A stretch of 64,000 nt of DNA from Rhizoctonia solani (lineage: Eukaryota > Basidiomycota > Agaricomycetes > Cantharellales > Ceratobasidiaceae). Below, one piece after another: positions 33,660 to 58,096 of the stretch (its first letter is position 1; each line of letters begins with the position of its first letter). The stretch is from assembly GCF_016906535.1 (NCBI RefSeq), contig NC_057384.1, positions 496,001-560,000 on the forward strand, written 5' to 3'. The notes under the pieces are model-generated. The model made no database searches. It saw only the letters and a list, made by a program, of their open reading frames with translations, and had not been told where the DNA came from. Both the position numbers and the translations under genes were made by a program.

Positions 33660-33950
33660 TGTTGAAGCGCAGGTGTGTCGATGCTAGATATAATGTATAC
33701 TCAGCTTCGACTATGATATAGCGAACTCAAATTCAATGTACCTAGATATAATGTATACTACAGGTACTTGTGAGATAACATGAAAAGATAGAAAATAATC
33801 CGTACTTTACCTCAGCTTCGACTATGATATAGCGAACTGAGGTTTACATGAAAAATTCCATGAGCATATATGCGAATAGTACAAACAGATACAAACGCGT
33901 CACGTGGACACGTATACAGGTTATCTAGTTATGATACTGATATTACAACA
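33660..33950 (-). repeat. 3' LTR of copia element
   Basis: 291 bp, TGTTGAAGCG...TTACAACA as read on the plus strand. Contains a duplicated 20-nt-scale motif (CTTCGACTATGATATAGCGA, twice). The polypurine tract GAGTGGGCG lies immediately inside it on the coding strand. Confidence 0.95.
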
Positions 33951-33998
33951 CGCCCACTCAGAATCATGACGGAATAAAAGAGAAAAAAATAGAGAGAA

Positions 33999-36737
33999 CT
34001 ATGCCATACCCATATCTGTAATGAACTTTGGAAATTTAAGTCGTCCAAGGGGCTTTGTAAGCACGTTGGCAACTTGTTCATTGGTAGGGATAAATTTAAG
34101 TTCTATCTCCTTGAATGCAATCAATTCGCGAATGAAATGATACTTCACTCGTATATGTTTTGTATTTTGATGATTGCTCGGATTTTTTGCAAGTGCAATA
34201 GACGATTGATTGTTGGTTAACAGAGCTGTTGGTCCGTTCGTAAGAAAACCTAATTCGGATAGGAAACTTCGAATCCAAAGAATTTCTCGTGCCGCGCTTG
34301 CGGCCGCAACGTATTTGGCCTCAGTACTTGATAAAGATATCGTCGGCTGTTTTCTCAATGACCATGCAATAGCACCTCCTGCCAGAATGAATGTCCAACC
34401 AGTCGTGGACCGACTTGTATGCGGATCTCCGGCGTAATCTGCGTCGACGAACCCGATGAGCTCTGAATTCTTAGAGCTGTCGTACACAATTCCAAGATCT
34501 TTTGTGGCTTGTAAGTACCGTAGAACTTGTAGCAATGCTGACCAATGCTCCTTCCCAGGATTTGCGGCATGTTGAGCAAGCAGTCCTGTTGCGTATGCGA
34601 TGTTGGGCCAAGTTGAGATCATTCCGTACATAAGTGAGCCAACACCTTGTTGGTAGAGAGTGCGGTCCACGCTTGGTGAGTTGTATTTCGGAAGGCTTAA
34701 CGATTCCGCCATTGGGGTAACGCATGGTTTGCAGTCTTCCATCCCAAAACGTTTAAGAACGTTGTCGATGTATTGACGTTGGGAAATTTTTAGCGTTCCC
34801 GCCTTTCAATCCCTCGTTATCTTGACTCCGACAAACATTTGTGCCTCCCCTAGATCCACTATGTCGAAAGATTTAGCCAAATCGACCTTTATGTCTTCAA
34901 GGTATGATCTTGGTGTGCCTGCAAGCAACATATCGTCGACGTGCGCTAATATTATTGCTAGTTTATTGTCTTCCCTTTGCCAAAAAACGGCGTGGTCGGT
35001 CTCGCATTGGGTGAATCCAATTCTCGTGAGTACCTCGCGCAAACGTAGGTAAAACGCTCTTGCCGCTTGTTTCAACCCGTATAATGCCTTCACGAGTTGC
35101 CATACTGACTTATCATTGTCGCGAAACCCCTCAGGCTGCTCCATATATATCTCCTCGTCTAAATCGCCATGTAAGAACGCAGTCTTGATGTTGAGTTGAA
35201 GGAGCTCAAGGTTTTGGTTAGCAACTTCGCTTAGGAGCACTCAATATGAGTTGGACGCAGCTACAGGTGAGGAAACTTTGTTGAAATCAACGCCCAGGCG
35301 CTGAGAGTATCCTTTTGCAACCAGTCGGGCTTTGTATCAAACGATTTTGCCATTGGGTCCACGTTTATATGTGAGAACCCATCGACATTCCACAACATTC
35401 TTATCTGTTGGACAATTTGCTTGTTTCCAGACTCCGTGTTTGGTAATTGAGTTGATTTTGTCGATCATCGCAGCTAACCAGAGGTGAAAATCTGGCCTTT
35501 CCATTGCTTCTTTGAACGTCTTGGGTGGTTCGTCGATTACTGACATATAGGCGTACTTGGCGTGTTTGTTTGTCCTTGCACCGTACCGTTCCGGCGGGCG
35601 AATGTGTCAAGTCGAACGACGAGGTCAAGCAGGAGGTTCAGGCGTTGGCTTGCAAGTCTCCGGGGACTGTGCGCGCGATTGGTGAGGCGATGTAGTAGAT
35701 GCTTTGGACTCCGAATCAATTTTGACCATAGGTCCGTCTCTTTGAATTTTCTCATCTGTTTTCGAGACTGAAATTTCAACTTCCCTGGTATGTGTTTTTG
35801 ATTCTTTCTCGTCGCCCACTTGCTCGGCGTTCCATTTGGGCTTTTCAAAATCCTCGATGATAATTTGTTGACGTGATTCACCGCCCTTGTCAAATACGAC
35901 ATCTTGTGAGGTGAGGATCTTCCCGCTTGACCGCTCTACCAGTATGTGTGCCTTTTGATTTGGCGCAAACCCTAAATATTGGCATTTGATTGACCTTGCT
36001 TGTAGCTTGGTTTGTTTATTGTCGGGTACGCGTGCCCATGCCTTGCAACCAAATATGCGGATTTGCGATACGTCGGGGACCTTTCCGGTGAAGATTTCTT
36101 GAGGGGTCCGCCCATTTAGGAATCGTTTTGGAGTAATATTCCATAGGTACGCTGCATAAATGACCGCATATCCCCAGAATCGATCTGCCATGTTCATGTC
36201 GATTCGAATCGTTTGCTGACAATCGTTTATGGTACGAATGGCTCTTTCAGCCACACCGTTACTCTCCGATGAGTCAGGTTTGGTCACTTGATGCTGTATC
36301 CCATTCGTACGCATCCAGCTCTCGAATTCTTTGGATTGGTATTTGCCGCCGCCATTGGTACGTAGTATCTTGATTTTATTCCCGATTAAGTTTTCGACTG
36401 ACGCTTTTAATTCCTTGAATCGCAATGGGTATTCGTCCTTACTCTTCAGGATATTCACGAACATCATTCGCAATTTATTGTCAATTGTAACTGAAAAATA
36501 TCGGAATCCGCCGATGGCTTTGATGGGTAACGGACCGCATAGATCACTGTGCATGAGCTCAAGTAGCTCCAAGGCGTGGTTTTGGGACTTAGAGAACGGC
36601 GCGCGGGTTTGTTTGCCTTGTATACATGGGCCGCAGATCAATTCGGGAGGTGAGCGACTTCCTATTATATCCATGCCTTTAACTGCGCCTTTTCTGACCA
36701 TTTCTAGGACGTATTCGTAGTTGATATGGCCTAATTG
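33999..36737 (-). pseudogene. copia pol region (integrase, reverse transcriptase, RNase H), broken
   Basis: Same frame as the gag part. Integrase shows HSDLCGP, then TID in the core and ESNGVAERAIRTIN. RT shows the active-site HVDDMLLAG and the ALYGLKQAARAFY motif. RNase H shows FVDADYAGD and SLSSTEAKYVA. Five TGA codons interrupt this part (the sixth is at 36738-36740). Catalytic or conserved acidic residues are also changed: integrase GAT to AAT at 36354-36356 (RTNGGG instead of RTDGGG) and GAA to AAA at 36342-36344. RNase H/IN sites show further Asp to Asn changes (LLTNNQ, ANVLTK). The copy is therefore not autonomous. Confidence 0.92.
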
Positions 36738-38231
36738 TCAATGCCAAGTGGTCAAATCGGCTCTCGCGATAGCAGTTGCAGCATAGGCAACAAAATTGTG
36801 TGCCTTGGCGTCATTGCGTTCGTTCTGATTGTCTGGTTCGACCAATCCAATGTGTGCGGTTTCTTTGGTACGTTTCACTTGTGCATTTAGTTTGTAGAGT
36901 TGATCAGTTTGACGAGCATAACCAATCTCGGGACCTTGTCCCTTATTTGCGACAAGGACCGCGCCGTAGTCCTTTCCGAATGCGACCTCTGTCCCGTTGT
37001 TTACAAGTTCTTGGACCGACATGAGGTTTGCTTGTAGCTTGGGTACGTGTAGGACTTCTTTTATTACCGCTTTGTGCTCAGTTCCTTGACGGTTTTGCAT
37101 CACGATAAAAACGCGACCGATGCCTGCAGCCGGGATTTGCTTCCTGTTTCCAACTTGAACGTGGACGGGCAATGTAAGTGGACAATATGTGGCAAACCAG
37201 TGTTGATTGGGCGTCATGTGCTTCGATGCACCCGAATCAAGTAGCCATGAGTTATTGGCCGGTTCGCTGTTGACTGCCGGTAACGCATATAGGACCGCGG
37301 GTAAGTCGTTTGTTGTAACTGCGACCTTTGCTGATTCAGTTTTCGTTGACGTCTCTTTGCCCTTGTCCTTTGGTTGCTTGTCGGCACCGTTCTTCTGCCT
37401 TGGTCCCGTTCCTTTGGCGCCGCCTCCCGCTGCCCAACATTCTTGCTTTGAATGACCAGGTTTACCGCAGTTAAGACATGCGGGTCCTTTGTTTTTCTTT
37501 CGCCGGTTTTTCGAGTTCAAGCTCGACGATTTTGCGTTCGATGTTTTGGACTTGTTCGGTAAGTGCGAGAACATCGCCGTGAGACCAGTGCCGTTTTTAC
37601 AACGTTCTTCCTCCTTTAGAGCGGCTTCCTTGACCATCAGAGGTGTAACAGCGCTCGCCTGGTTTGTGGTTTGGATGACGGTGTTAACGATTGCATAGGT
37701 GGGTGGCAACGCATTCATCATGATTTGTGCCATCATTAGGTTGCTGACAGGCTCCCCAAGTGTTTTCATCTTGGAAGCAATTGACAATAGGTTGTTTAAA
37801 CCGGTAGCGATGTCGTCATCTTCCAAAATTTTCGTTGAGGTAAGCTGCTGATATAAGAAAGATAGCGATTGGACGCCTTTTCCTTCCCAGCGTTCAACTA
37901 TTCGAGTCCATGCTTGCTTAGCCGTAGTTGTGTCCATTACGTCCGCCATAGCTCCATCTTCCATGTTCAGCGTGATTTGCGCAAACGCGTCCTCATCCCG
38001 TTTTGTCCACTTAGCAATCGACTCTTTATAGTTCAAGACTTTTGCGTCGTCTTTTAGTTTGGCTTCGGTGGGTGAGTTGGGCAAGTTATTGGTTCCGTTC
38101 GCTACGCTGAATAATCCACGCAGTTTCAAAACTGTCGTTTGACGAAACTTCCACGCGTTGTAGTTGGACCCATCGTCCTTCAACTTCGGGAGTTCGTAGA
38201 TTTTCGTGTTCTTATTCTCACTTGTTGACAT
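36738..38231 (-). CDS. copia gag and protease portion (open to the first TGA)
   Basis: 497 codons starting MSTSENKNTKIYELPKLKDD. A UBN2-type gag domain (SNYNAWKFRQTTVLKLRGLF, WTRIVERWEGK) is followed by a CCHC knuckle (CLNCGKPGHSKQEC). The aspartic protease site is LLDSGASKHMTP. The frame ends at LTTWH-TGA; in other copia elements this point reads WHRQLGH, so the TGA replaces an Arg codon of the GAG-pre-integrase zinc region. Confidence 0.92.
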   Translation of the reverse strand: MSTSENKNTKIYELPKLKDDGSNYNAWKFRQTTVLKLRGLFSVANGTNNLPNSPTEAKLKDDAKVLNYKESIAKWTKRDEDAFAQITLNMEDGAMADVMDTTTAKQAWTRIVERWEGKGVQSLSFLYQQLTSTKILEDDDIATGLNNLLSIASKMKTLGEPVSNLMMAQIMMNALPPTYAIVNTVIQTTNQASAVTPLMVKEAALKEEERCKNGTGLTAMFSHLPNKSKTSNAKSSSLNSKNRRKKNKGPACLNCGKPGHSKQECWAAGGGAKGTGPRQKNGADKQPKDKGKETSTKTESAKVAVTTNDLPAVLYALPAVNSEPANNSWLLDSGASKHMTPNQHWFATYCPLTLPVHVQVGNRKQIPAAGIGRVFIVMQNRQGTEHKAVIKEVLHVPKLQANLMSVQELVNNGTEVAFGKDYGAVLVANKGQGPEIGYARQTDQLYKLNAQVKRTKETAHIGLVEPDNQNERNDAKAHNFVAYAATAIARADLTTWH

Positions 38232-38285
38232 GTTGTGCGGCTAACGTGCGTGTATTTTGTCTTCTTGGTTAATTTGCCAGTGCGG

Positions 38286-38299
38286 CGGGGCTCATAACC
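38286..38299 (-). promoter_or_regulatory. primer-binding site of copia element (half tRNA-iMet)
   Basis: The 14 nt next to the 5' LTR read CGGGGCTCATAACC on the plus strand. This matches the 5' anticodon-stem/loop half of initiator tRNA-Met (GGGCTCATAACC, anticodon CAT), the half-tRNA primer used by Drosophila copia. Seen directly; primer use is inferred. Confidence 0.8.
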
Positions 38300-38590
38300 T
38301 GTTGAAGCGCAGGTGTGTCAATGCTAGATATAATGTATACTCAGCTTCGACTATGATATAGCGAACTCAAATTCAATGTACCTAGATATAATGTATACTA
38401 CAGGTACTTGTGAGATAACATGAAAAGATAGAAAATAATCCGTACTTTACCTCAGCTTCGACTATGATATAGCGAACTGAGGTTTACATGAAAAATTCCA
38501 TGAGCATATATGCGAATAGTACAAACAGATACAAACGCGTCACGTGGACACGTATACAGGTTATCTAGTTATGATACTGATATTACAACA
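38300..38590 (-). repeat. 5' LTR of copia element
   Basis: 291 bp, identical to 33660-33950 except CAA here for CGA there at 38319-38321. Confidence 0.95.
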
Positions 38591-38896
38591 TTTAGCTGGA
38601 AAAAGGCGTACAATTTTTAGTTTCGTGTCCTCATACAGAGGCATAACAGGAGTATCCGAGATGACCTTTCAAGGACCACAACAGCAACAGGGGTATGTTT
38701 AATAAGAAGTGCCAAGTGCGTGTGTTCGGGTTGTCACCAAAAGCAACGAAGAGGGTGTGAGGCGAACTTTGGGCCAGCGAACACGAGTCAGCTCTAGGAA
38801 CGTTAATCATATATATTTAAGGAGATTCAGGGATAGAAAACTTGTATTTACAACTCCTGATCAACATTTAATCCCGCAGCCCTTTTCTCGTGCTTT

Positions 38897-41235: not shown

Positions 41236-41748
41236 GGTGTTGTGGTGCTCCAGAGTTCCAGAATGGAGAGAGAGAGGGGGTGCGGTTAAGGTATCTCAGT
41301 CGGCCAGAATTTATCTGGTCATCTTTTGTTTGATTCCCTTTCTTCACCGATTCTGTCTGGAGTGTCACAGATAGTACGTACAGAAATTGCATCCGTGTGA
41401 TTGCTGAGGTAGTTCATTGAATTCTATTCCAGATGCCAAGTCCGCCCCATACTAGCCACCTGTCAGGTACAGTTGTGTCCCTCAGCTTGCACACTGATGG
41501 GGAATTTGTTATTCCAAATTAGGCCCTGCCAAGCCGCTTTTGCAAAACATGTACAACATGAAGAGTTTTCAGACTTTTATCACATAAGACTAACCAAACA
41601 AACAATGAGGCATAGAACAAATGTACATATATGCATGATAATTAAATTAAATTAAATGATTTAAGCCTGTACATGTGCTGTCTGAGGGAGTTGCTCATCA
41701 CTGAGGGGTTCCTCTGTTAGAGGATCTTGACTAAGGGTGTCAACAACT
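41236..41748. other. P450 upstream region
   Basis: About 510 bp; presumed P450 promoter. No repeat or gene recognised until the LTR at 41749. Confidence 0.5.
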
Positions 41749-42458
41749 TGTTGTAGACACACATATACCAAGGGAATTTAATCCTATTTTCTCACTTTTA
41801 AAGAAAGTCAAATGGACAAGTTTTTGATCACATGATCTTGGCGCTTATATCATACAATAAGCGCCTTGCCATGTCCTCCTCCTTGCTTAGTCAGCATACA
41901 TAGCCACCTCCACCTGATGACATCATTTTGACATGTCAGTGACACATACACATGAGTAAGACTGCAGCAGGAGCAGGGTTCTTATTGGATTAGGTATTGC
42001 ATATATGTATTTGTAATTAGGACATACTCTGTAATATGTAAGGAGGCCAACCAACCATGGTAACACCCAGGTCAATCACCTCTTATTGCATCCTGTACAC
42101 TGTACAAGGACCTTAGGTCCAGTAAATAGTTACTTAGTCACTTAGTCACTGCCTTAAGTGGCTTTGTCATTGTACTTAGATAGCTCCTTGCCACCTTAAG
42201 CAGTCTTGACATTGTAGTATAGTTGGCCATTGCTGTAGATAGCTCCACCATTGCCTTAAGCAACTTACTCATTGTACACCACAGCCACAAGTGCCAACCC
42301 CCTCAATGTCCTTACAGATGTCTAGAACACTAGGTAATCAACCTTAAGTTGGTTGCAAACCATGCCCACCAGCACAACCCACTCAGCTATCAACAACAAG
42401 GAGACCCCCTGTACTAGCACAAGGGAAAATGAGTGATTGGGATTGCCCTTTAGCTTGT
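41749..42458 (+). mobile_element. family 1 gypsy fragment: 5' LTR plus start of internal region
   Basis: LTR 41749-42329 (TGTTGTAGAC...GTCTAGAACA) followed by CTAGGTAATCAACC and about 120 bp of leader matching the leader of element B. The rest is lost; a reversed family 2 LTR follows at 42459. Confidence 0.8.
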
Positions 42459-42709
42459 TGTCATGACCCAACTGTAAGGTTGGTCACACACTAGTGGCAG
42501 GCACTTAAGGCTGTACTAAACACTGCACATGACTATCTAAGGCTATACTACTAACCACTTAAGGCAATCCTAAGCTAACTACTGATGGTGGGGAGGGGCC
42601 TTATGCCAGTGAGGATGGTGAGGACTTCTGCAGTCTAGGTGACTTCTGAGTAAAGGGGGCCTATGGGGGCCTGGACTACTTAGCTGATTGGGTACCTGTC
42701 TATGATGAA
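42459..42709 (-). repeat. truncated family 2 LTR, reversed
   Basis: Starts TGTCATGACCCAACTGTAAGG (reverse of a family 2 LTR end) and stops where the next family 2 LTR begins. Confidence 0.7.
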
Positions 42710-44318
42710 TGTTACACCCCTACAAATTATACCATTGGAATTGCCTCTTTTTCTATTAATTTCAGTATTTTTTACAGACTCTTTATCTTTTGTTTTTTGA
42801 TCACATGACCTTGGTGCTTATTACGCCAAGATGCTGTGCCAAGATGCTGTGCCAAGGGCGCTTAGGAGAAATCCACACTTCTGCACAGCCCACAGCATGC
42901 TTCCTTTTTCACACAGACTCTTGTTTTCTCACAAGCACAGACCATGTACATAGTGTTCAGTTGTCTATATATACAGAAGGGAAATTGCTTGGAATCCCCA
43001 AGTTGATTTTACCTTGTCTCTAATCACAGACAGGCTATTGCCAAGCTAAGTAGTCCAGGCCCCCCTAGGCCCCCTTACTTGTTGATACCACCTCTCCAGA
43101 AGTACATCTGTCCTAGATGTCTGTAAGGATGTTGAGGGGATGGGCGCTTGTGGCTGGGTGTATCTAAGTAAAACCGCTTAAGGCAGTGTGCAAGCTACCT
43201 GCAACAACATCCAACTATACTACAGTAACAAGACTGCTTAAGGCAGCAACAAGCTATCTAAGTGCAATGAGGAAGCTGCTTAAGGTGGTGACTAAGTGTC
43301 TAAGCTAACTAAGTAGTTACCGGCCCTAGTGGCCTTGTACAATGGGGTGATGCAACAAGAGGTAATTGACCTGGGTGTTACCATGGTTGGTTGGCCTCTT
43401 TATATATTCTATGGGTCTACTAATTACAAATACATAATGTGCAATACCTATTCAAATAAGAACCCTGCTCTGCAGTTGGTCTTACTCATGCATATGTGTC
43501 ACTGATGTGTCATGGTGGCATCATAGGTGGAGGTGGCTATGTGTGCTGAGTAAGTGCAAGTGGGGACATGGCTCAGCATTTTAGCATATGATATAAGCAC
43601 CAATGTCACATGATCAAAAATATAGTCCATTTGACTTTGTTTAAAATTGAGAAAATCAGAATAGAATCCCTGGGTATAAGTGTGTCTACAACAACATCAC
43701 CACCTCTACTGGCCTAAGGCCCTCCTACACTGCCTATAGATAGTTCAGCACTGCCTTATAGCAGTTTTCTCAGTAGTTAGCCTAGATAGATTAGTCAGCA
43801 GTGTTTGTATTAGATACAGCCCTAAGCACCTGCCTCTAGTGTGTACCCACCTTACAGTGGTGTACAACATTGTAAAATTGACTTTTGTAGGCTTGAATTG
43901 ACAACAAGAAGCCCTCCAGTACTAGCACTAGGGAAATAACCATGATTGGGGCCACTTTGGGACCAGAATAATCAAAAGGTCACCACCCCCATGTAGTACC
44001 AACTTGCTATAAGGCTGACAGGTGCCAATTGCCTGCATACCACAAGTTTTGCCAGAGCTCAGTAACTAGCAACCCTAGCCAGCTGAAACACCTGCTTGTG
44101 GAAAACCTGCTCATATCACAATTGCCAGATCTGTTGATTTGGTGTAGGGACCATCCAACACTAGGTGCTTGACGCAAGGGTTTAGCATTCACACATTACA
44201 AAAAAACTGCTCATAAGTCCTGTCACAGGCACCTTTACGCCCCACACTGTTTTCCACAATTCCATCCACATGCTCTGGCATCCCACACCCTTACTCCCAT
44301 CCTTCCAGTTGCTCCAGC
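42710..44318 (+). mobile_element. family 2 gypsy fragment: 5' LTR (split by a solo LTR) and untranslated leader
   Basis: LTR from TGTTACACCCC (42710) to TGTACAACA (43869), interrupted by a reversed family 1 LTR at 43109-43693. The sequence 43870-44318 matches the leader of element A (48663 onward), including CGCAAGGGTTTAGC and CACAGGCACC. It ends at a CCAGC target site. Confidence 0.82.
43109..43693 (-). repeat. solo family 1 LTR, reversed, TSD ACATC
   Basis: 585 bp from TGTCCTAGATGTCTG to GTGTCTACAACA, flanked by ACATC at 43104-43108 and 43694-43698. A clean solo LTR inserted inside a family 2 LTR. Confidence 0.9.
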
Positions 44319-44933
44319 TGTTGTAGACACATTCAATACCAGGGAAATTATTCCCATTTTCTCAATTTTGAACAAAGACAATTGGACAACATTTTTGATC
44401 ACATGACATTGGTGCTTATATCATACACTAAGCGCCAAGCCACGTCCTCATCTGTGCTTACTCATCACACAAAGCCACCTCCACCTGATGACATCACTAT
44501 GACATGTCAGTGACACGTATGCATGAGTAAGGCCAACTGCAGAGCAAGGTTCTTATTTCATATGTAGTACTTCCTTTCCCACACAACTGTATTTGTAATT
44601 AGCCACTCTCTATAATATATAAGGAGGCCTACCAACCATGGTAACACCCAGGTCAATTACCTCTTGTCACATTCCCACCACTGTACAAGGCCTTAAGCCA
44701 GAAACCACTTAGTTACACACCTTAAGCATTGTCCTCACTGTACTTAGGTAGTTCACCAACACCTTATAGCATCTTGTCACCGTAGATAGTTAGCTTGTTG
44801 TTGTAGGTAGTACCATTGCTGCCTTAAGTGGATTCATACTTAGTTCCATATGGCCACAAGCGCCTGCTGCCTCAACGCCCCTTGTTGTAGACACACTTAT
44901 ACCCAGGGAATTTATTCCCATTTTCTTGATTTT

Positions 44934-45492
44934 TGTTGTACACCACTGTAAGGTGGGTACTTGCTAGTGAAGGCAGGCGCTTAAGGCTGTACTACTACAA
45001 GCAACACTTATGTAATCTAACTACTAAGGCTATACTAACACCGCTTAAGGCGGTTATCTACTAACTACTGACAAGGGGGCCTGAGGCCTGGGAGGTGTGA
45101 TAAGTTTATCAAGGGGGTTAACTTCTGAGAACTGGTGTGGGCTGGCTACTTAGCTGGCTGGGGGTTCCTCCTCAATGAGATGAGACAAGGTAAAATTGAC
45201 TTGGGGTCTCCAAGCAATTTTCCTGCTGTATATAGACATAAGTGCGCTATTTACATGGTCTGTGCGCATGAGAAAAGAAGTACATGGTGGGAAATAAGAA
45301 GCGTGTTGCAGGCTGCGCAGAAGCGTGGATTTCTCCTAAGCGCCCTTGGCACAGCATCTTGGCGCGGCATCTTGGCATAATAAGCGCCAAGATCACGTGA
45401 TCAAAAAACATAAGATAAAGAGTTTGTAAAAAATAGTAGAAATATCAGAAAAGTCAGGCAAATCCAATGGTATCAATAAGGGGATTGTAACA
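44934..45492 (-). repeat. solo family 2 LTR, reversed, TSD ATTTT
   Basis: 559 bp from TGTTGTACACC to GGATTGTAACA; ATTTT at 44929-44933 and 45493-45497. Confidence 0.88.
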
Positions 45493-45858
45493 ATTTTAAA
45501 CAAAGGCAATTGGACTAGATTTTCAATCACGTGACATTGGCACTTATATCATACGCTAAGCACCAAGCCATGTCCCCATCTGTGCTTAATCAGCATATGT
45601 AGCCACCTCCACCTATGATGTCATCATGACACATCAGTGACATATGCATGAGTAAGGCCAACTGCAGAGTGGGGTTCTTATTGGATTAGGTATTGGATAT
45701 CATGTAATTGTAAATAGCTTGCTAGTAGAATATATAAGGAGGCCAACCAACCATGGTAACACCCAGGTCAATTACCTCTTGTTGCATCCCTTTAAAACTG
45801 TACAAGGCCTTAGGCCAGTAACTACTTAGTCCACACCTGTACTTGTTGCCTTAAGCAA

Positions 45859-46458
45859 TGTTGTACACCACTGTAATGTGGGTACTTGCTAGTGGGGCAG
45901 GTGCTGAAGGCCGTACTACTACAGACAAAGCTAATCTACTACTATCTAAGGCTATACTATTGCCGCTTAAGGCAGACTTCTACTGGGTTCTGATAACAGA
46001 GGGGCCTTAGGCCTGGAGGTGAGGTGAGTCAAGTAAAGGGTAAGTGCTTCTAACTACTGGGGGCCAGCTACTTAGCTGGCTGGAATGGGTCCTCCTCAAA
46101 TGAGTATGAGACAAGGTAAAATTGACTTGGGGTTTCCAAGCAATTTTCCTGCTGTATATATAGACATGGGGTGCTATTTACATGGTCTGTGCGTGTGAGA
46201 AAGGAAGTACATGATGGGAAATAAGAAGCATGCTGTGGGCTGCGCAGAAGCATGGATTTCTCCTAAGCGCCCTTGGCACGGCATCTTGGCGCAGCATCTT
46301 GGCGCGGCATCTTGGCGCGGCATCTTGGCGCGGCATCTTGGCATAATAAGCGCTGAGATCACGTGATTAAAAAACAACAGATATTGAGTTTGGAAAAAAT
46401 ACTAAAAATATCAGAAAAATCATGCAAATCCAGTGGTATATGTTAGGAGGTTATAACA
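45859..46458 (-). repeat. solo family 2 LTR, reversed, TSD AGCAA, with expanded tandem repeat
   Basis: 600 bp from TGTTGTACACC to GTTATAACA; AGCAA at 45854-45858 and 46459-46463. It is longer than other copies because a CATCTTGGCGCGG-type unit is repeated five times near 46270-46345. Confidence 0.88.
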
Positions 46459-46637
46459 AGCAACTTCCTCACCGTAGATACATAGTTTGCCATTGCCCAT
46501 AAGGGCTTGGTTGCCGTACTTAGGTAGTTAGTTGTTGTAGGTAGCTTCACCACTGCCTTACGTGGTCTACACTTAGTTAGATACGGCCACAAGCACCTGC
46601 TGCCTTGACACCCCTTAAGGATGTCTAGGACACCAGC

Positions 46638-47209
46638 TGTTACAACCTCCTGAACAATACCATTAGATTTGCCTGATTTTTCTCTTATTTTTACCATTTT
46701 TTGCAAACTTGTTACCTTATGTTTTTCAATCACAGGATCTTGGTGCTTATTATGCCAAGATGCCGTGCCAAGATGCTGTGCCAAGGACGCTTGGCAGAAA
46801 TCCACGCTTCTGCGCAGCCCGCAGCATGCTTCCTTTTTCACATGTAGGCTTCTATTCACACACGCACAGACCACATGTAGTTAGTAGTTTTGTCTATATA
46901 AACAGCAGGGAAATTGCTTGGAGACCCCAAGTCAATTTTACCTTGTCTCATATCCATTGAGGAGGCATCAGCCAGCTAAGTAGCCAGCCCCCCAGAAGTT
47001 CTGCTGACGCATTACCCCTGTATCTCACTCATCACACCTCCAGGCCTCCGGCCCCTTTGTATTGACAGTAGATAGTTATTGGTCACCATAAGTGACTTAG
47101 TAGATAGTAGTTAGCCTAGAGTAGATAGATTACATAAGCTAGTGTAGTAGTTACGGCCACAAGCGCCCGCCTTCACCAGCGCGTACCCACCTTACAGTGG
47201 TGTACAACA
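46638..47209 (+). repeat. solo family 2 LTR, TSD CCAGC
   Basis: TGTTACAACCTCC to GGTGTACAACA; CCAGC at 46633-46637 and 47210-47214. It landed on the same pentamer already duplicated by the family 1 insertion on its left. Confidence 0.85.
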
Positions 47210-47255
47210 CCAGCCATTGTTCCTTGGCAGCCTGCTCCCAACCACCCTCTTGCAG
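47210..47255 (+). repeat. remainder of family 2 leader
   Basis: Resembles the element A leader just after CCAGC (CCTCTTGCAG near the gag start), so it continues the fragment broken off at 44318. Confidence 0.55.
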
Positions 47256-48088
47256 TGTTGTAAATTGGGGAAAAGAGGTTGAGACTCTGGTGCTGAGCAG
47301 AGTCTGTGTTGGAAGATTCCCAATTTCCAAGCTAAGTAAAGAAGTAGCTTCTTTAGGGTTCTCTGGGTCTAGCTATCTTGAATACAATCAACTACAGATA
47401 TGTCCTTTCTCAGTGTAAAGTGTCTTAGTAAGTATTTCTGTAAGAGCAAGAGTACTGGCTCAGGTTCCCTTTGGCAGAGATAGTTATGTAAGTTTCACTC
47501 CTAGTTGCAGGAACTAACTGGTTACCTAGTATATATCCTTCTTTAAGGATGATTGCCTTCTGTTCACTTAACCTAAGAACTCTGTATCAGGTCTACAACC
47601 TTTCCACACTATGGGTACTTGGGAGATCCACTTATACAAGTTTAAGTTATTTGAAATCTTGAGGCACAATATATCACACAATTGAGGGAGGCAAGCCCAA
47701 ACCCAAGAGTGACAGTCAACAGTAACAGTGAGTGGAGTGGTAGGAAGGGTGCCCTCCAAGGGTATGCAAGAGTCCCCTTTTATACCCTAGAGTGGCAAGG
47801 TTACTGATGTCATGCCCTAGAGGCATGACCACCTTAGAATCCACTAAGTCAAAGAAATAGTGAATATATGCGCTATTTTTATGAAGATTTATGGATATAT
47901 GCATATCTATGCTGTTTAAGTGCTGAGTGTGTATTATGTAATCCAATAACATGACTTGGAGTCATGTTATCATGCCTTTCTTATCTTTGGTCATGTGACC
48001 TTATCTTTGTTGTGATGTTTGTACATGTATTTACTATTCCCTCCCCCTTTGAATATATAAGGAGGGTTCTGAGAGCCTTAAGCCTCAG
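47256..48088 (+). repeat. unassigned LTR-like fragment
   Basis: About 830 bp starting TGTTGTAAATTGGGG, containing a palindromic CATGCCCTAGAGGCATG at 47812-47828 and a TATA stretch (GAATATATAAGG) near 48051. It is cut at 48088 by the family 1 LTR. Looks like part of another LTR, but no second copy is in the window. Confidence 0.4.
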
Positions 48089-48098
48089 TGTCATAGAC
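48089..48098 (+). repeat. first 10 bp of a family 1 LTR split by element A (continues at 57157)
   Basis: TGTCATAGAC; the rest of this LTR resumes after element A with the duplicated TAGAC. Confidence 0.75.
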
Positions 48099-48662
48099 TG
48101 TTACAACCCCCTAAATTATACCATTGGATTTGCCTGATTTTTCTCTTATTTTTACTATTTTTTGCAAACTCTTTCCCTTATGTTTTTCAGTCATGTGATC
48201 TCAGTGCTTATTATGCCAAGATGCCGCGCTGAGATGCCGTGCCAAGGGCGCTTAGGAGAAATCCACGCTTCTGCGCAGCCCGCAGCATTCTTCTCATTTG
48301 ACATATGTACTTCTTTTCTCACGCGCACAGACCATGTAAATAGTGCGTTCTTGTCTATATATACAGCAGGAAAATCACTTGGAGACCCCAAGTCAATTTT
48401 ACCTTGTCTCATTCCATTGAGGAGGACCCCCCCCCAGCAAGCTAAGTAGCTGGCCCTCAGTAGTTCAGAAGTTGACCCCTTTTACTTGCGCTTACCACAC
48501 CTCCCGGGCTAAGCCCCCTTTGTCAGCAGAACCCAGTAGAAGTCTGCCTTATAGCGGCAGTAGTATAGCCTTTGGTAGTTAGTAGATTAGCTTTGTTTGT
48601 AGTAGTACAGCCTTAAGCGCCTGTCCCACTAGCAAGTACCCACATTACAGTGGCGTACAACA
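48099..48662 (+). repeat. 5' LTR of element A (family 2)
   Basis: 564 bp, TGTTACAACC...CGTACAACA. TATA (CTATATATACAG) near 48354-48365. GTCAATTTTAC, 35 nt downstream, is partly complementary to the sequence just after the LTR. Confidence 0.92.
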
Positions 48663-48664
48663 TT

Positions 48665-48675
48665 GTAAAATCAAC
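48665..48675 (+). promoter_or_regulatory. candidate self-primer binding site of element A
   Basis: GTAAAATCAAC directly after the 5' LTR pairs with GTCAATTTTAC in the LTR at 9 of 11 positions. Both mismatches disappear if each CAA was once CGA, in line with the TCG decay seen in these elements. Confidence 0.55.
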
Positions 48676-49415
48676 TTGCTGTAGGCTTTGATTGACAACA
48701 AGAGGACTCCCAGTACTAGCACAAGGGAAATAACTGTGATCAGGGCCACTTTGCAGAGCAGAATAATCAAAAGCTCCCCACCCCCACGTATTACCAAATT
48801 GCTATAAGGCTGACAAGCTCTAACTGCTTGCATACCCCAAGTTTTGCCGGAACTCAGTAGTCAGCAACCCTAGACTGCTGAAACACCCGCTTGCTGAAAA
48901 CCTGCCCATATTACAACCACCAGGTCTGTTGATTTGTTGTAGGGACAGTCCAATGCTAGGTACTAGACGCAAGGGTTTAGCGCCAGCACACTACAGAAAA
49001 ACCGCTCATAAGTCCTGTCACAGGCACCTATCCCCACACCGTCTCCAATCATTCCATCCACATGCTCTGGCGCTCCACACCCATACTCCTGTCCCTCCAG
49101 CTGCTCCTCTTGACGTTCTATTCCAACCCACTCCCAACTGCCCTCTTGCAGCACATCTCCTGCTCCGCAAGACTTGCCAAGGATGGAACCAGAGCCGTCC
49201 ACTACTGCTCTCCTTGAGGCTGTCACAGCCCTCACTGCCACAGTCTGGTCTCTCCAGGACCAAATCAAATCCCAAGGCAAGCAAATCACCCAGCTTGTTG
49301 CCATATGCAAGGAGACCAACAACCTTGTTGGCAACAAAGACCAGGGCAGAGCCCAAACTAAGCCTGGCCCATTGACTGGGCCTGTTACCCCTCCTACCCA
49401 CACAGGAGGGGAAAC

Positions 49416-49965
49416 TGTTATAACCTCCATTAGAATTGCCTGAATTTTCTATCATTTTTAGTATTTTTTACGGACTCAATATCTCATGTTTTTCAATCAC
49501 GTGATCTCGGCGCTTATTCATGCCGAGATGCTGCGCCAAGATGCCGTGCCAAGGGCGCTTAGGAGAAATCCACGCTTCTGCGCAGCCCGCAGCACGCTTC
49601 TCTTTTCACATGAACGCTTCCTTATCTCACGCACTGACCATGTATATACTTTCCCCTTTATCTATATAAACAGCAGGAAAATTGCTTGGAGACCCCAAGT
49701 CAATTTTACCTTGTCTCATACCATTGAGGAGGACATTCAGCCAGCTAAGTAGCCGGCCCCCCAGTAGTACAGAAGTTAACCCCTTCATTGCGCTCACCAC
49801 ACCTCCCAGGCCTAAGGCCCCTCCATTCCCAGTAGTTAGTAGAAGTCCACCTTACGTGGCATTAGTATAGCCTAGTTAGATAGTTAGATACACATTGTCA
49901 GTAGTAGTACGGCCGTAAGCGCCCACCCACTAGCAAGTACCCAACCTTACAGTTGGCGTACAACA
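49416..49965 (+). repeat. solo family 2 LTR inside element A gag, TSD GAAAC
   Basis: 550 bp, TGTTATAACC...GCGTACAACA; GAAAC at 49411-49415 and 49966-49970. A member of the same family inserted in its own relative. Confidence 0.9.
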
Positions 49966-50471
49966 GAAACCCACACTCCAGGCACGGTTAGGCCTGGGCT
50001 CAAGGCCCCATTCAGGCCATCAAGAGGAACGGGATTTGATTCAGAGGAGGAAGAAGAGCCAAGGCACCCCAAAAAGGAGCCTCAAGGAACGCCTTGAAGG
50101 CACCTTGGGTCCCTCACCCCCTTTGACGCAGGGTCCAGTGTGAAGCGGCCCAAGATGGACCTTCCTGACCCCTATAAGGGCAATTCTAGGGGGCATAAGG
50201 CAACCCAGTGGCTGGATTGAATGCTGCTGTGGGTTGCCCTTCATTGAGATCAATTTGATGAAGAAGAGCAGATGGTTGTGTGGATACTTTACCACATGAC
50301 AGACAAGGCAGCCAACTGGGTGCTTCCCCTCATTGGGGCAATCATCAAAGGGGAAGGCAACCCTCCAACTACCATCCCGGCCCTAACGGCCAAATTCAAG
50401 GAGGCGTTTGCCAATCCCAATGCCAAGCAGGCCACAGCCAGAAAAATTGCGGCACTCTCCCAGACCACAAC

Positions 50472-50644
50472 TGTCATAAACAGAGGAAAATAGAACTAGC
50501 CGGAATTGAACCAGCTTGACCACTAAGCCATAGAGCCCTATTATTCCTCTGCTGACAACCCATGATTACACCTGCTACCCCCCAAATTTGGGCTTGGGCC
50601 AGCATGCAACCACTTGTACTGGTCATGTGACCATGTCCAGGACA
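50472..50644 (-). mobile_element. 173-bp element with LTR-like ends and tRNA-like Pol III boxes, copy 1
   Basis: TGTCATAAACAG...GTCCAGGACA, TSD ACAAC at 50467-50471 and 50645-50649. On the minus strand it contains TGGCTTAGTGG (exact A-box consensus) and GGTTCAATTCC (B-box with one change), only 7 nt apart. They form a D-arm-like stem GCTT/AAGC and a T-arm-like stem GCTGG/CCGGC without an anticodon arm. No coding capacity. Could be a short TRIM-type LTR, a SINE relative or a MITE; the 5-bp TSD and TG/CA ends favour an LTR-type origin. Confidence 0.75.
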
Positions 50645-51307
50645 ACAACCACCTCCAAGTACGTCATGGAGTTCTGCAATCTCATGGCAGAATTGGACTG
50701 GAATGAGGAGGCTTATATTGCGCAGTTCATGCAAGGCCTCCACTGGAAGGTCAAAGAGTTGTTGTCAACAAAAGACAACATCCCCAAAGAACTCAAGGCC
50801 ATTTTTGCAGCTTCAATCAAAATAGACAACACTTGACGCAAAAACAAGGAGAACCGCCCTAAAAAGGCACCCGCTAAGTCCCCAGCCACCATGGCCACCT
50901 CCACAACCACCACTAGGGTCCGCCTATCAGAGGACCCCAATTATGTTACCCCAGAGGAAAGGGACCGCCGCCGTGCATTGGGACTATGCGTCAAATGCAG
51001 CCAAAAGGGCCATGGCATCAAACAGTGCCCCAACGGATGGAAAGCCACCATCAAGGAAGTGGCCAAGGTAGCTGAGGATGCTGAGTTGGGAAAAGATTAA
51101 AGTCAAAGACTGCTGCCAAGCCCTTGACTCCCAAAATGGACATTGTAGATAGCTATATAGAATTTGTATCTGTGGGACTTGATTCAAATAAAAAACCCCT
51201 ACTGTTTATTGATCTATACATCCAAAACTCCTTGGCAGAACTGTCATAAACAGAGGAAAATAGAACTAGCCGGAATTGAACCAGCTTGACCACTAAGCCA
51301 TAGAGCC

Positions 51308-53194
51308 TGTCGTAGACACAATCAATACCAGGGAATTTATTCCCATTTTCTCAAATTTAAACAAAGGCAAACAGACAATATTTTCAATCACGTGACTTTG
51401 GCGCTTATATCATACGCTAAGCGCCGAGCCACGTCCCCATCTGCGCTTAATCAGCATACATAGCCACCTCCACCTATGATGTCATCATGTTATGGAATGA
51501 CTAATTTAGACATATGCGCCCCTAATTGCCAATAGGGAATAGTGCAAACTGGAGTAATCATACTTGCTCTATCCAAATATGGGCATGAATATTACTATAT
51601 TTGGAAACTGGCAGTGCTACAAGACCTTTTATACCTTATTTCCTCATTGCGCTTGCATATATACACGTCTGATTATGCAAAGTGGTCATAATATTATTTC
51701 TATGATTTATAGCATTTTTTGTATCATGCATTTATATGTAGGAACAGTACTTATAGACCATAGAACAAGTGCAAGTAAGCATGCAAGCGCCGGCGCTTAG
51801 TAATTGCAAATAAGTGCCAAAGGTTGGCGGGGCGCGCCAACGCCAATATCTCGGCGGGAAATAGGCATATTAATATGCAGACAAATACCAATAGGTCGGA
51901 GGCTCCGGCATCTCACTTCTCAAAAAGGAATCGCCTGATTCTAAGCCAAATTGATGGAGATACTAACCATTTAAGTTTCTAGCTTTTTCTATGAGATCCT
52001 ACCTTGCCTCAAGGTTATTTTTAGTATTCACACTAATGTAATTTAGTCATGTATGCTCTAGAACATTCTGTAAATAGCCTTGGGTCTATCTCACTAGGAC
52101 TTATTGGGACTAATTGGTCTTTATGTATCAAATAGCTCAGACTGTACCTCTCATGTAACTTCCCCTTTGGTACATCATGTATATAGTTATTTGTTCTCCC
52201 TCTGGGGTATATAAACCCCCTGAGGGAGACCCTTTGAATACAACCTTCTTTTCATCCCATTCTTACCCCTTGTGTGAACTTGAAGATCTATTAGATCTTC
52301 TTTACTTAGTTTAGAGTGTCTTATTTTGCTTTCTTAGCCTCTTAAGCTCACTGAACTTAACCTGTAAGGTATCTCGGCGCATATAGCCTCTAGCAAGGTC
52401 CCAACAGATACTGGGTAGCTAGGAAAGGCTCTAGGGCGACCCTGAACCTCTTGAGTAAGTCAGTTGGGAGAGTTTAAGGCCTTGAGAGCGGCATATACAC
52501 CTTAACTGAGTGCAATCTCAGTCAAATAAATTACTAACAAATCCAGATAAATTGTAGTAGGTAACTAAGACTCAATACTAACTTCCATACTATAGGTATA
52601 AGCATAACCAACCACCTGCATCTGCAGTAATTGCTTGATTACTTGTTAAGTGTAGGGATCACCCTGATTACTAACCTAATTTACCCTTATATAGCTAGTC
52701 TATTGCCTTTTATATCCATAGATAACTGATCTATTAATCACTTTATTATATTTTGTACTTAATTACATAGTCCCTAAAACCCTACTCTATAACACATCAC
52801 AACACATCAGTGACACATATGCATGAGTAAGGCCAACTGCGGAGCAGGGTTCTTATTGGATTATGTATTGCATATAATGTATTTGTAATTAGTTTACCTG
52901 TAGAATATATAAGGAGGCCAACCAACCATGGTAACACCCAGGTTGATTACCTCTTGTTGAATCCCCCCCACTTGTACAAGGCCTTACAGCCAGATTACTT
53001 AGTAGCACTATAAACGCCTTAAGTGTCAACCCCACTGTACACACGTAGCTTGCCATTGCCCTTACGGCCTTGGTCATTGTTGTTTAGTAGTTAGACGTTG
53101 TAGGGTAGACCTTGCCGCCTTAAGCGGTACTCATTGTACATCCACACGGCCACAAGCGCCTGCGCCCTTGACGTCCTTACAGACGTCTAGGACA
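51308..53194 (+). repeat. solo family 1 LTR, TSD GAGCC, itself split by a third LTR type
   Basis: TGTCGTAGACAC...GTCTAGGACA; GAGCC at 51303-51307 and 53195-53199. Net length without the nested LTR is about 575 bp, normal for the family. Confidence 0.88.
51488..52794 (+). repeat. 1307-bp solo LTR of a third family, TSD CATCA
   Basis: Starts TGTTATGGAATG and ends CTATAACA, giving a 6-bp inverted end (TGTTAT/ATAACA); CATCA at 51483-51487 and 52795-52799. Contains a promoter-like GGGTATATAAACC near 52206-52218. No open frame of note. The only copy in the window. Confidence 0.75.
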
Positions 53195-56100
53195 GAGCCC
53201 TATTATTCCTCTGCTGACAACCCATGATTACACCTGCTACCCCCCAAATTTGGGCTTGGGCCAGCATGCAACCACTTGTACTGGTCATGTGACTGTGTCC
53301 AGGACAAGAACCCCTGAAAACCCTCATAGACTCTGGAGCCACATCAAACTTTATATCCCCATTGATTGTGGAAAAATTAAAAATCCCAAAACCCCAACTC
53401 AAAAATCCACAAGTTGTGAGAATGTTAGATGGTACTATTTCTCAGACTGGTTGCATTTGGCACCAGGTCCACCTCACGGTCTTGGCCAATGGCCATACAC
53501 ACTCCATCCCCTTTCTTGTCTGCCCCATTGGCAAGACCCTGGCTATATTAGGCATGACATGGTTAACCGCAGAAGCTCCCCTCATTGACTGGCAACAGGG
53601 ACTTGTCACCTTCCCCAAACAAGTTCAAATTGCCTCAGAAGAAGAAGCTGATCAAGGCCCATTAGCTGATCTACCCAGTCAATACCACAAGTTTGCTAAA
53701 GTCTTTGGAGAGGAAGAATTCAAAGTCCTACCTCCCCATAGGGAATACAATATAGCCATAGACCTCCTGCCAGACGCCAAGCTCTCCCCCAGCCCTATCT
53801 ATGGCATGACAGACGCAGAATCCAAGGCCCTGAAACAACACATTGATGAGGAACTAGCAACAGGCAAGATCCACCCCAGCACTTCATCAGCAGGCGCTCC
53901 AGTTATGTTTGTAAAGAAGGCAGATGGTTCCCTTAGACTGGTTGTGGATTATTGGAAGCTCAACAACATAACCCACAAAAATGTGTACCCACTCCCCAGA
54001 CAAGACAACCTCATGGCTAAGCTACAAAACGCCAAACTGTTTACAAAACTGGATCTACAATGGGGTTACAACAACGTCCACATCAAAGAAGGTGACAAAT
54101 GGAAGACAGCCTTTAGAACCAAATACAGCCTCTTTGAGTACCTAGTCATGCTGTTTGGCCTTACCAATGCCCCTGCAGCATTTCAGCACTTCATGAATGA
54201 TCTGTTCAGAGATCTGATTGACGTAATGGTGGTGATCTACTTAGACAATATCCTCATCTTCTCAGAAAAACCAGAAGATCATCCGACCCACGTCAGAGAA
54301 GTACTATCCTGGTTGATAAAGAATCAATTATTCTGCAAACTGTCCAAATGCCACTTCCACGTCACTACAGTAGATTACTTGGGTATTGTCATATCCCCTG
54401 ATGGCTTCTCAATGGACCAAAAGAAGGTAGAGGCTGTTACATCATGGCCTCAGCCCAAAACAGTCAAACAAGTCCAGGCATTTCTAGGCTTTGTCAACTA
54501 TCTCCAATGGTTCATTCCAAACTTTAGCTCAGTTGCACAACCCCTGCACAACCTCACCAAAAAGGAAACCCCCTGGTCATGGGGAAACCTAGAAGAGGCA
54601 GCTTTTCAGAAGTTAAAGTCCCTAGTAACCAAGTCCCTGGTCCTTATCCACACCAACCCTGACCTCCCCTACTACCTAGAAACCAACACATTGGGAGTAG
54701 CCATGGGAGCCATTCTGAGCCAACAAGGGGAGGATAACCGTCTTCATCCGGTTGCTTACATGTCAAAGTCCTTCTCCAGTGCTGAAGCCAACTACAATAC
54801 GCATGATAAAGAACTACTAGCTATCATCAAAGCACTGGAAGAATGGCGGATCTTCTTGGAAGCAACAGATAAACCAGTCCAAGTTTTTACCAATCATTGA
54901 AACTTGGAATATTGGATGCAAGCACAGACATTCAACTGCAGGCATGCCCAATGGCACATATTCCTGAGCAATTTCAACTTTGAAATCCATTATTGCCCAG
55001 GAAAGCAATTGGGAAAACCGGACGCCCTATCCAGAAGGGCAGATTATGCGGAAGCCCCTCAGGAACCAGAAGTAATGCTACCAGCCAAAGTATTTGCCAA
55101 CACATCAGAAGAGGAACTCAAGATTGTCATGGAAATCCAGAATAAGCTGAGGGAAGATCCGTCCCTGGAACCCATCATCCAGTTCCTAACAGAAGACACA
55201 GACAATGCACCTCCCTCCATCCAAAAGGCCTATTGGGATTATGACTGGGAGGAAGAGCTCTTATGGTATTGCAGGAAACTAGTTGTCCTGGACTCAGAAC
55301 CTCTCAAGGAATGGCTATTAAAAGAATTCCACAACTCCCCACTGGCAGGTCACCCAGGACAACAAAGGACGCTTGAACTTGTCAGCAGAAACTATTGGTG
55401 GCCTGGGATGAAATCCTCAGCCAAGGAGTGGGTTGAGTGTTGCCCAACTTGCCAAGCAAATTGCCGCGCCCATGCACCTGTGATCTCCCTAAAACCACTG
55501 GAAGTCCTGCCATTCCCGTTCCATACCATATCCTACAACTTTATCACAGGGTTCCCCAAGTCACAGGGACATGATGCCATCCTAGTGGTAATAGATTCAT
55601 TCTCCAAGTTTGGACATTTTATCCCAACCTCAAAGAAAGTCACTGCAAAGGGCCTGGCAGACCTGTTCATCACTCATGTATGGAAACTCCACGGATTACC
55701 CGTCAGGACTGTATCAGATCAAGGAACAACGTTCACAGGGAAATTCCTCAGGGCCCTCTACCAGAGACTGGGTGTCAAACCCTCCTTCTCCTTGGCTTAC
55801 CACCCAGAGTTGGACAGACAGACAGAAAGGGTTAACCAGTTTATTGAGTTCTACCTCCATTCCTATGTAGCGGCAGACCACTTGGACTGGGCCACCTGGC
55901 TACCATTAGCAGAGTACGTGTACAACAATGCCAAACATGCTGCCACGGGAAAAACCCCCTTTGAATTGGTCTATGGGAGAAACCCGGTCATGAACCTGTC
56001 CAACGTGCCGGCAAACATTCCAGAAGCTGATAATATAGCCAACACCCTGGCCAAGGAATGGAAAGAAGCCAAAGTGTCCCTCAGAATGAGCAAGGAAAGA

Positions 56101-56593
56101 ATGACCAGAGATAGAGGAACAACCCCAGAGTATTCAGTTGGCAAGAAAGTCTGGTTAGATGGGAAAAACATATTGCTAAGGACCAATTTGAATAAATTGG
56201 ACCCCAAGCAACTTGGTCCCTTCAAAGTTATCAAAAAATCTCTAGTCACACCTACCGCCTAGAGCTACCAGAAACTCTGAAAATCCATGACGTCTTCTAT
56301 GTTGGGTTGCTATCCAGGAGCCACAAATCACCAAGTCAACCATTTCCAAAACGGCCCCCTCCTGAAACAATAGAAAGGGAAAAAGAGTATGAGGTTGAAC
56401 AGATCATAGATTCCAAAAGACAACAAGGAAAATGGTTCTACCTGATAAAATGGAAGGGGTATGGCCCAGAAGACAATTCATGGGAGCCCAAAGAACTGTT
56501 GGAACACAGCCAAGAAGAGATCAAGCGCTTCAACCAAGCTAGACTCAGAAAGGCTTGTGACGCCGCCAAGAGCCTTTAAGGGGGGGGGGGCAA

Positions 56594-57156
56594 TGTTACA
56601 ACCCCCTAAATTATACCATTGGATTTGCCTGATTTTTCTCTTATTTTTACTATTTTTGCGAACTCTTTCCCTTATGTTTTTCAGTCACATGATCTTGGCG
56701 CTTATTATGCCAAGATGCCGCGCCAAGATGCTGTGCCAAGGGCGCTTAGGAGAAATCCACGCTTCTGCGCAGCCCACAGCACGCTTCTCATTTGACATAT
56801 GTACTTCTTTTCTCATGCACACAGACCATGTAAATAGTGCATTCTTGTCTATATATACAGCAGGAAAATCACTTGGAGACCCCAAGTCAATTTTACCTTG
56901 TCTCATTCCATTGAGGAGGACCCCCCCCCAGCCAGCTAAGTAGCCAGCCCTCAGTAGTTCAGAAGTTCACCCCTTTTACTTGCGCTTACCACACCTCCCG
57001 GGCTAAGCCCCCTTTGTCAGCAGAACCCAGTAGAAGTCTGCCTTATAGCGGCAGTAGTATAGCCTTTGGTAGTTAGTAGATTAGCTTTGTTTGTAGTAGT
57101 ACGGCCTTAAGCGCCTGTCCCACTAGCAAGTACCCACATTGCAGTGGCGTACAACA
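56594..57156 (+). repeat. 3' LTR of element A (family 2)
   Basis: 563 bp, close to but visibly diverged from the 5' LTR, so older than element B or the copia copy. Preceded by a long G run (56580-56590) as polypurine tract. Confidence 0.92.
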
Positions 57157-57514
57157 TAGACACAATCAATACCACGGAATTTATTCCAATTTTCTCAAAT
57201 TTAAACAAAGTTAAATGGACAACATTTTCAACCACGTGACTTTGGCGCTTATATCATACACTAAGCGCCAAGCCACATCCCCAACCGCGCTTAAAATCAG
57301 CATACGTAGCCACCTCCACCATGACGTCATCATGACATGTCAGTGACACATATGCATGAGTAAGGCCAACTGCGGAGTGGGGTTCTTATTTGATACGGTA
57401 TTGCATATAATGTATTTACAATTAGCTTGGTCTTGTAATATATAAGGAGGCCAACCAACCATGGTAACACCCAGGTTGATTACCTCTTGTTGCATCCCCT
57501 AACTATACAAGGCC
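57157..57514 (+). repeat. continuation of the split family 1 LTR (from 48098)
   Basis: Resumes TAGACACAATCAATACC and runs to ACAAGGCC, where element B is inserted; beyond element B it continues at 63952. Confidence 0.75.
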
Positions 57515-58095: not shown

Positions 58096-58096
58096 C

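Follow-up and report, generated by a model that had tools for sequence, protein, structure and literature searches.

Rhizoctonia solani, the rice-sheath-blight fungus, quite probably harbours a mutator of repeats that resembles repeat-induced point mutation (RIP) and prefers the cytosine of TCG. We were led to this reading by comparing retrotransposon copies in a 64,000-nucleotide stretch of its genome (the window), where the frames of a Copia element (Copia W) and a Gypsy element (Gypsy A) are interrupted by stop codons, with further copies in the same genome, which was taken to be that of isolate XN, AG1-IA (Agaricomycotina, Cantharellales), and comprises 16 contigs and 40,703,773 bp. C-to-T changes in these copies favour one context, fall on both strands, struck three Copia copies independently, recur across Copia families and spare the gene DNA sampled. 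An earlier reading of the window (the sequence-only reading) had proposed a TCG-directed C-to-T mutator from the stops alone, and the proposal is supported by TCG being the top context in copy pairs, by opposite-strand products (TTGA and TCAA) at shared sites and by the loss of TCG on the repeat side of the window. Its further suggestion of RIP-like mutation holds as regards a TCG-directed mutator of repeats, with the addition that CCG and ACG decay too; the RIP label itself is putative.

C/T differences by context between element copies

To examine context preference, we aligned two copies at a time, kept the columns in which both neighbouring bases agree, and counted C/T differences by context on both strands. 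Between Copia W and the C12 copy, differences occur at 100 of 117 TCG sites, 21 of 64 CCG, 20 of 91 ACG and 6 of 81 GCG, and at only 8 of all 1266 non-CpG cytosines (4 of 510 in CpA contexts). With the C9 copy, aligned in six pieces, all 96 TCG sites differ from Copia W, with T always in C9, while the other CpG contexts differ at 29 of 48 (CCG), 20 of 65 (ACG) and 8 of 62 (GCG) sites. Other Copia families resemble the C12 comparison: the differences at TCG, other CpG and non-CpG sites are 44/142, 9/260 and 4/1082 for L005/L006; 44/122, 6/166 and 2/662 for L003/L004; 94/111, 28/193 and 5/864 for L002/L008; 29/50, 9/116 and 1/476 for L079/L081; and 63/65, 12/63 and 6/359 for L001/L033. Fisher tests of TCG against the pooled other CpG contexts gave p values from 1e-8 to 5e-35 in eight pairs that have some loci in common and so are not independent of one another. 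In every Copia pair with TCG differences, TCG is hit at a higher rate than any other context, several-fold in young pairs and about two-fold where TCG is saturated (e.g. L004/L023, with TCG 77/83 and CCG 22/47), and the equal incidence of C-to-T in ACG, CCG and GCG that would speak against TCG targeting is thus not what these copies display. Elsewhere in the pair survey, L031/L035 had zero countable TCG, and five rows were copies or overlapping loci without differences at the counted sites.

Relatives of Gypsy A (window positions 49466-56952) are very numerous, with 1522 candidates. Of these, 11 were scored, among them the window's own copy; the other ten, spread over nine contigs, have about 79-80% identity across 3.6 kb. 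The two pairs above 90% identity differ at 16/30 TCG, 11/47 ACG, 12/61 CCG and 1/53 GCG sites, and the seven pairs at 80-90% identity at 48/79, 71/174, 71/184 and 14/115, respectively, an order of contexts similar to that in Copia, though noisier. Because CCG and ACG decay as well, the mutator is best described as TCG-preferring (T>C>A>G before CG) and not TCG-exclusive. Beyond TCG, no clear preference was seen at positions -2 and +2, and two short comparisons of solo long terminal repeats (LTRs), with few sites, were without TCG preference (C2, TCG 1/8 and ACG 2/7; C15, TCG 1/5 and ACG 1/8).

The main rival, which we consider rather unlikely, holds that 5-methylcytosine deaminates slowly and spontaneously in heterochromatic repeats under permanent methylation, and that the preference for TCG is intrinsic or comes from repair, with neither a homology search nor a defence episode. 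It would explain why nearly all changes lie at CpG and why other CpG contexts decay too in old copies, and it accords with the presence of a DNMT1-type gene where no RID-type gene was seen in a PF00145 search (see below). The several-fold excess of TCG over ACG in young pairs is harder to fit; spontaneous methyl-CpG decay in well-studied genomes is not known to prefer a 5' T strongly. Nor is the loss of TCG clock-like relative to non-CpG divergence, since L003/L017 differ at 18/525 non-CpG cytosines and 47/107 TCG (all 47 hits in L017), as against 1/476 and 29/50 in L079/L081. Hits are also often one-sided between the two copies of a pair (63:0, 88:0, 92:2), although not always (24:20 in L005/L006). 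On these alignments, the irregular pace and the frequent one-sidedness appear to favour episodes over steady decay, and the RIP-like mutator may therefore be one that acts episodically.

In-frame stops and palindromic target sites

Copia W (33660..38590, minus strand) was studied through its LTR pair, its reading frame and its relatives. Its gag-pol frame (38231..33999, minus strand) ends in TAG and contains exactly six internal stops, all TGA with a 5' T (36738..36740, 35625..35627, 35607..35609, 35337..35339, 35241..35243 and 34806..34808). In Gypsy A (plus strand) the five listed stops, at 50095..50097, 50218..50220, 50245..50247, 50834..50836 (in another frame, past an insert) and 54898..54900 (in the pol frame), are likewise TTGA in whichever frame is open there, and the assertion that all eleven stops are TGA with a 5' T was accurate (11/11 read TTGA on the coding strand). 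Under the genetic code, TCG-directed C-to-T change can create a stop solely as TGA at a T|CGA codon, so that such a mutator implies stops of the kind seen. Six of the 11 T-preceded CGA-type codons of the Copia frame are TGA and five are intact CGA, whereas all nine CGA codons after A, C or G are intact (Fisher p=0.014, each TGA taken as a former CGA). The chance of a 5' T at all eleven stops is about 8e-7 if T is assumed to make up 28% of 5' bases, and 1.4e-3 with the Copia frame's own T share (11/20). As for stops from CAA, CAG or TGG, the Copia frame has 90 such codons standing and no internal TAA or TAG. Gypsy A is disrupted in other ways as well, by an insertion around 50.49-50.65 kb and by changes of frame that are followed by a TAA (51098) and a TAG (56260); 'all eleven' therefore holds only as long as the open frame is followed. 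Taken alone, the stops are moderate evidence, and it is the copy alignments that are decisive.

TCGA is self-complementary, and a hit on either strand converts it to TTGA or TCAA, upon which the target is lost. TTGA and TCAA at one place in two copies hence indicate a TCGA ancestor and two separate hits. By this test the claimed origin of the stops at TCGA sites is upheld for five of the six Copia stops, which face TCAA in C9 (35625), in C9 and C3 (35607), in C12 and C9 (35337), or in C12 (35241 and 34806), but is unproven for 36738, where the window, C12 and C9 all read TTGA. Opposite-strand pairs between Copia W and C12 number 16 at TCGA, 1 at CCGG and 0 at ACGT, GCGC and three non-CpG control palindromes, and between C9 and C3, the oldest pair, 21 at TCGA, 4 at ACGT, 4 at CCGG and 0 at GCGC and the controls. 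Copia W, C12 and C9 are all hit at 23 sites where one of them disagrees with the other two. The one that differs is C12 at ten of these sites, C9 at eight and Copia W at five, and because it varies in this way the three show no clear shared history of hits.

LTR pairs bear on the timing of the changes. From the order of its pieces, the C12 copy was treated as a single element that a later insertion divided. Its LTRs disagree in 10 columns, of which eight belong to six TCG sites and include two TTGA/TCAA opposites. Copia W, flanked by 5-bp direct repeats TTTAG (33655-33659 and 38591-38595), has LTRs at 33660..33950 and 38300..38590 (both minus strand) with a single difference, TCGA at 33680 in the former against TCAA at the matching site of the latter. 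Since LTR pairs differ at TCG sites, at least part of the process acts on integrated copies. Copia W also has many TCG hits in its body and almost none in its LTRs (31/55 and 1/6 proven palindromes hit, p=0.09), a contrast that is suggestive only and might reflect refreshed LTRs or a body already damaged when the element inserted.

These data bear on two further explanations. Descent of the copies from a master element that already carried the stops would account for the TTGA shared by the window, C12 and C9 at 36738, and the near-identical LTRs and body/LTR contrast of Copia W mean that part of its body damage could predate insertion; we nevertheless think such inheritance very improbable, as TCAA in another copy contradicts it at five of six stops and the triple-hit sites lack a clear shared history. 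The Copia stops as a whole are accordingly not ancestral to the family, with 36738 alone left to that account. Equally improbable, in our estimation, is an AID/APOBEC-type DNA or cDNA cytidine deaminase with TC preference that edits retroelement intermediates. Such enzymes are best known for preferring a 5' T, and strand choice at palindromes is patchy in one copy (C9), but they would be expected to edit TC sites regardless of a 3' G, and hits at TC outside CpG are all but absent (TCA 1/118, TCC 0/109 and TCT 0/96 in the C12 comparison); moreover, hits lie on both strands and the C12 LTR pair gained hits after insertion. A search for deaminases (PF00383) found four uncharacterised matches and does not settle the matter. 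Strand-coordinated tracts, as from a processive mutator, were also considered and set aside: a runs test on all TCG sites (C12 p=0.01, C9 p=0.26) is confounded, because the sequence fixes the strand of a non-palindromic TCG, and its repetition on palindromes was ambiguous.

TCG in repeats, gene DNA and open-frame elements

The repeat cluster that includes Gypsy A (41800..56950) retains 11 TCG to 766 TTG on both strands, compared with 1097 to 1286 on the gene side of the window (1..32000), which served as reference, and TCG depletion is thus a property of the window's repeats and not of its gene side. In a 1-kb profile TCG is zero across 42001-49000, with GCG and ACG persisting in part of that span. 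At 42001-44000 all four CpG contexts are nearly gone (0-8%), where neighbouring bins lost mainly TCG, which suggests that the oldest repeats have also undergone a CpG decay of another kind, blind to context. A second Gypsy element (57000..64000, plus strand), with domain matches and long open gag and pol frames, is also TCG-poor (51 TCG, 366 TTG), its remaining CpG contexts being less depleted. As to leakage into unique flanks, the 560 bp adjoining the left LTR of Copia W gave TCG 0.53 and a 579-bp stretch further out, with few sites, 0.23, values that point neither way.

Across the genome the TGA rule is strong, although not absolute. Stops within matches to RVT_2 (58 matches, some of them overlapping fragments) comprise 39 TGA, 5 TAA and 2 TAG, and those within the 150 best-scoring of 788 RVT_1 candidates comprise 8 TGA and no TAA or TAG. 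The base preceding the stop gives 6 TTGA and 2 CTGA in eleven Gypsy stretches; six Copia loci (L031 excluded) have 7 TTGA, 1 GTGA and 3 CTGA, two of the last in loci that are duplicates. Two 4.5-kb stretches with a heavily mutated Copia, L023 (C13:771445-775955) and L024 (C11:1314858-1319368), are 99.96% identical, which suggests that a damaged copy was duplicated after its damage.

Elements without stops differ in their TCG content. Twenty stretches that surround RVT_1 matches without stops, their open frames 615-1228 aa long, have TCG at 0-24% of TCG+TTG, and in 18 of the 20 TCG is the lowest of the four contexts. Ten loci with stop-free Copia matches have 26-68%, and an eleventh such match outside that list, L008, is heavily hit (29 TCG, 253 TTG). 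Near-identical open-frame Gypsy copies, L059-L064 (C11, C12, C13, C15, C3 and C9) and L065-L068 (C2, C7, C10 and C14), are almost free of TCG. The first of these families is almost free of every CpG and encodes arginine mostly by AGA or AGG; one Gypsy family of six copies, with 0-15 differences per ~1500 bases, has 0-2 TCG and 17 AGA/AGG to 3-5 CGN codons for arginine. To judge from such sequences, the open-frame Gypsy copies may be survivors that purged the mutator's targets.

Several observations weigh against a mutator of this kind or limit its reach. No stop is found in 32 of the 58 RVT_2 matches and 142 of the 150 scored RVT_1 matches, and identical TCG-rich Copia copies without hits exist (L006/L007, 0/130 TCG); with so many matches free of stops and Copia copies unhit, the process is neither fast nor universal. 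Kinship among the Gypsy stretches, or plain codon history of the family, are alternatives to target purging as the source of their low TCG. CCG and ACG decay too, in the comparison with C12 as in that with C9, and more so in old copies, and ordinary methyl-CpG decay may run alongside. The LTR pair of the C9 element is mixed, its five differing columns being two in one TCG palindrome, two at ACG and one transversion, and strand runs at palindromes are ambiguous (p 0.66 in Copia W, 0.07 in C12, 0.02 in C9 and 0.41 in C3). The background, finally, is a sample and not a scan, made up of 32 kb of the window, six 4-kb loci at round coordinates and ~9 kb at the DNMT gene. Four of the six loci have TCG fractions of 0.43-0.51; L048 (0.25) is itself a Gypsy element, and L047 (C10:1100001-1104000), with an F-box gene, is mildly TCG-poor (0.32; other CpG 0.36-0.43). 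One bin on the gene side (15001-16000) has low values for every CpG context (0.20-0.32), among which TCG does not stand out. As for L047, it could be a duplicated gene family touched by the mutator.

Candidate enzymes, RIP indices and known systems

Searching the genome for C5-methyltransferases (PF00145) recovered one gene, at ~2,179-2,183 kb on C3, into which both matches fall and whose closest relative in PDB is DNMT1. It has weak replication-foci and BAH matches, both under the Pfam cut-offs, and, as we read the sequence, PCQ and ENV motifs across introns. The sequence-only reading had proposed a look for DNMT/RID-type methyltransferase genes: one DNMT1-type gene is present, but no RID-type gene was seen in this exon-split search, which could miss genes such as DNMT5; a search with the DNMT1-RFD family matched nothing anywhere in the genome and is uninformative. 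The DNMT1-type gene found fits the work of Amselem et al. (2015; PMC4352252). They associate a Masc2-like DNMT1, in the absence of RID, with CpG-type signatures of three basidiomycetes, and they report that Microbotryum and two rusts lack RID and have a single gene of the DNMT1 class, Masc2 in type.

Together these data would be explained if R. solani carries, or recently carried, a C-to-T mutator of multi-copy DNA with the order T>C>A>G before CG, acting on either strand and striking each element copy separately after it arose. Such a mutator may be a RIP-like genome defence, conceivably working through cytosine methylation by the single DNMT1-type enzyme followed by deamination, and would have shaped the surviving retrotransposons, whose open-frame Gypsy copies lost most of their TCG words. 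RIP proper, homology-triggered and of the sexual phase, would be a narrower reading, and the DNMT1-type gene is a candidate for the enzyme.

Standard RIP indices are a mixed guide to this damage. Li et al. (2021; PMC7884421), who judged RIP not prevalent in the R. solani XN genome, used cut-offs of 1.03 or less for (CpA+TpG)/(ApC+GpT) and 0.89 for TpA/ApT. By these the Gypsy cluster fails the first (1.34) and passes the second (1.02), and the window Copia fails both (1.12 and 0.74), whereas L002 and L006, Copia loci with little mutation, satisfy both; the damage may have escaped because one of the two indices moves away from the RIP threshold under a TCG mutator. A TCG index taken from work on Microbotryum (TTG/TCG over other NTG/NCG), in a simple form without the tetranucleotide correction of the published method (PMC10502011), is 17.6 for the Gypsy cluster and 0.10 for the gene side. 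The RIPCAL paper describes that tool as not designed for trinucleotide bias (PMC2621366), and Hane et al. (2014; PMC4014442) expected CpG bias without TpCpG in R. solani and the Agaricomycotina. We found no earlier report of TCG bias in Agaricomycotina in the open-licence literature searched, for which some terms were perhaps too narrow.

With classical RIP of Neurospora and other Pezizomycotina the process shares C-to-T change, repeats as targets, action on both strands and the destruction of coding frames. It differs in that CpA is not targeted, in the index, which at 1.34 for the Gypsy cluster lies above the RIP limit of 1.03, and in that no RID-type gene was seen, with the proviso given above. 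Closer is the TpCpG hypermutation of Microbotryum, a RIP-like process for which Hood 2005 and Horns 2012 are reportedly the sources to be credited. As reported for the Pucciniomycotina (PMC5381629, PMC10502011, PMC4014442), C-to-T change at TCG exceeds that at other CpG in retroelements, both strands are hit independently in each copy (here as TTGA/TCAA opposites), transposable elements persist in large numbers (PMC5381629), and non-repeat DNA is largely spared (here in window positions 1-32000 and the sampled loci without such elements, L047 being mildly low). Unlike in those reports, the host is a member of the Cantharellales and not a relative of Microbotryum, and the printed expectation for its subphylum was CpG without a 5' T (PMC4014442).

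Within the same species complex, AG8 shows CpG-biased hypermutation between nuclei, likewise C-to-T with a 3' G (PMC4014442). That bias is described as moderate (~40% CpG) and as affecting genes and repeats alike, whereas here most C/T differences of young repeat copies are at TCG and the sampled gene side is spared; the AG8 figures compared are dinucleotide ones. Another Agaricomycete, Heterobasidion parviporum, also shows C-to-T change with a 40% bias to a 3' G, although its data are population single-nucleotide polymorphisms compared at the dinucleotide level (PMC5870257).

The taxon being Agaricomycotina, we regard the process as one of a known kind in a new place: its RIP-like TCG signature turns up in a subphylum for which TpCpG was not expected (PMC4014442), and in a genome in which RIP had been judged not prevalent (PMC7884421). 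The TTGA/TCAA palindrome test is a simple, consensus-free proof of ancestral TCGA and separates independent from shared hits in any repeat family. More tentatively, a TCG-directed mutator of repeats may go back to the ancestor of the Basidiomycota, or be widespread among them, and have been overlooked in Agaricomycotina because dinucleotide indices fail to resolve it. Rhizoctonia may at the same time be the scene of an arms race: successful Gypsy lineages of high copy number would survive because they purged TCG (in one family nearly all CpG) from their open frames, whereas Copia lineages rich in TCG would be struck down and remain few in copies. If the signature is true of other Agaricomycetes, the defence would be older than thought, or would have arisen twice with the same odd target.

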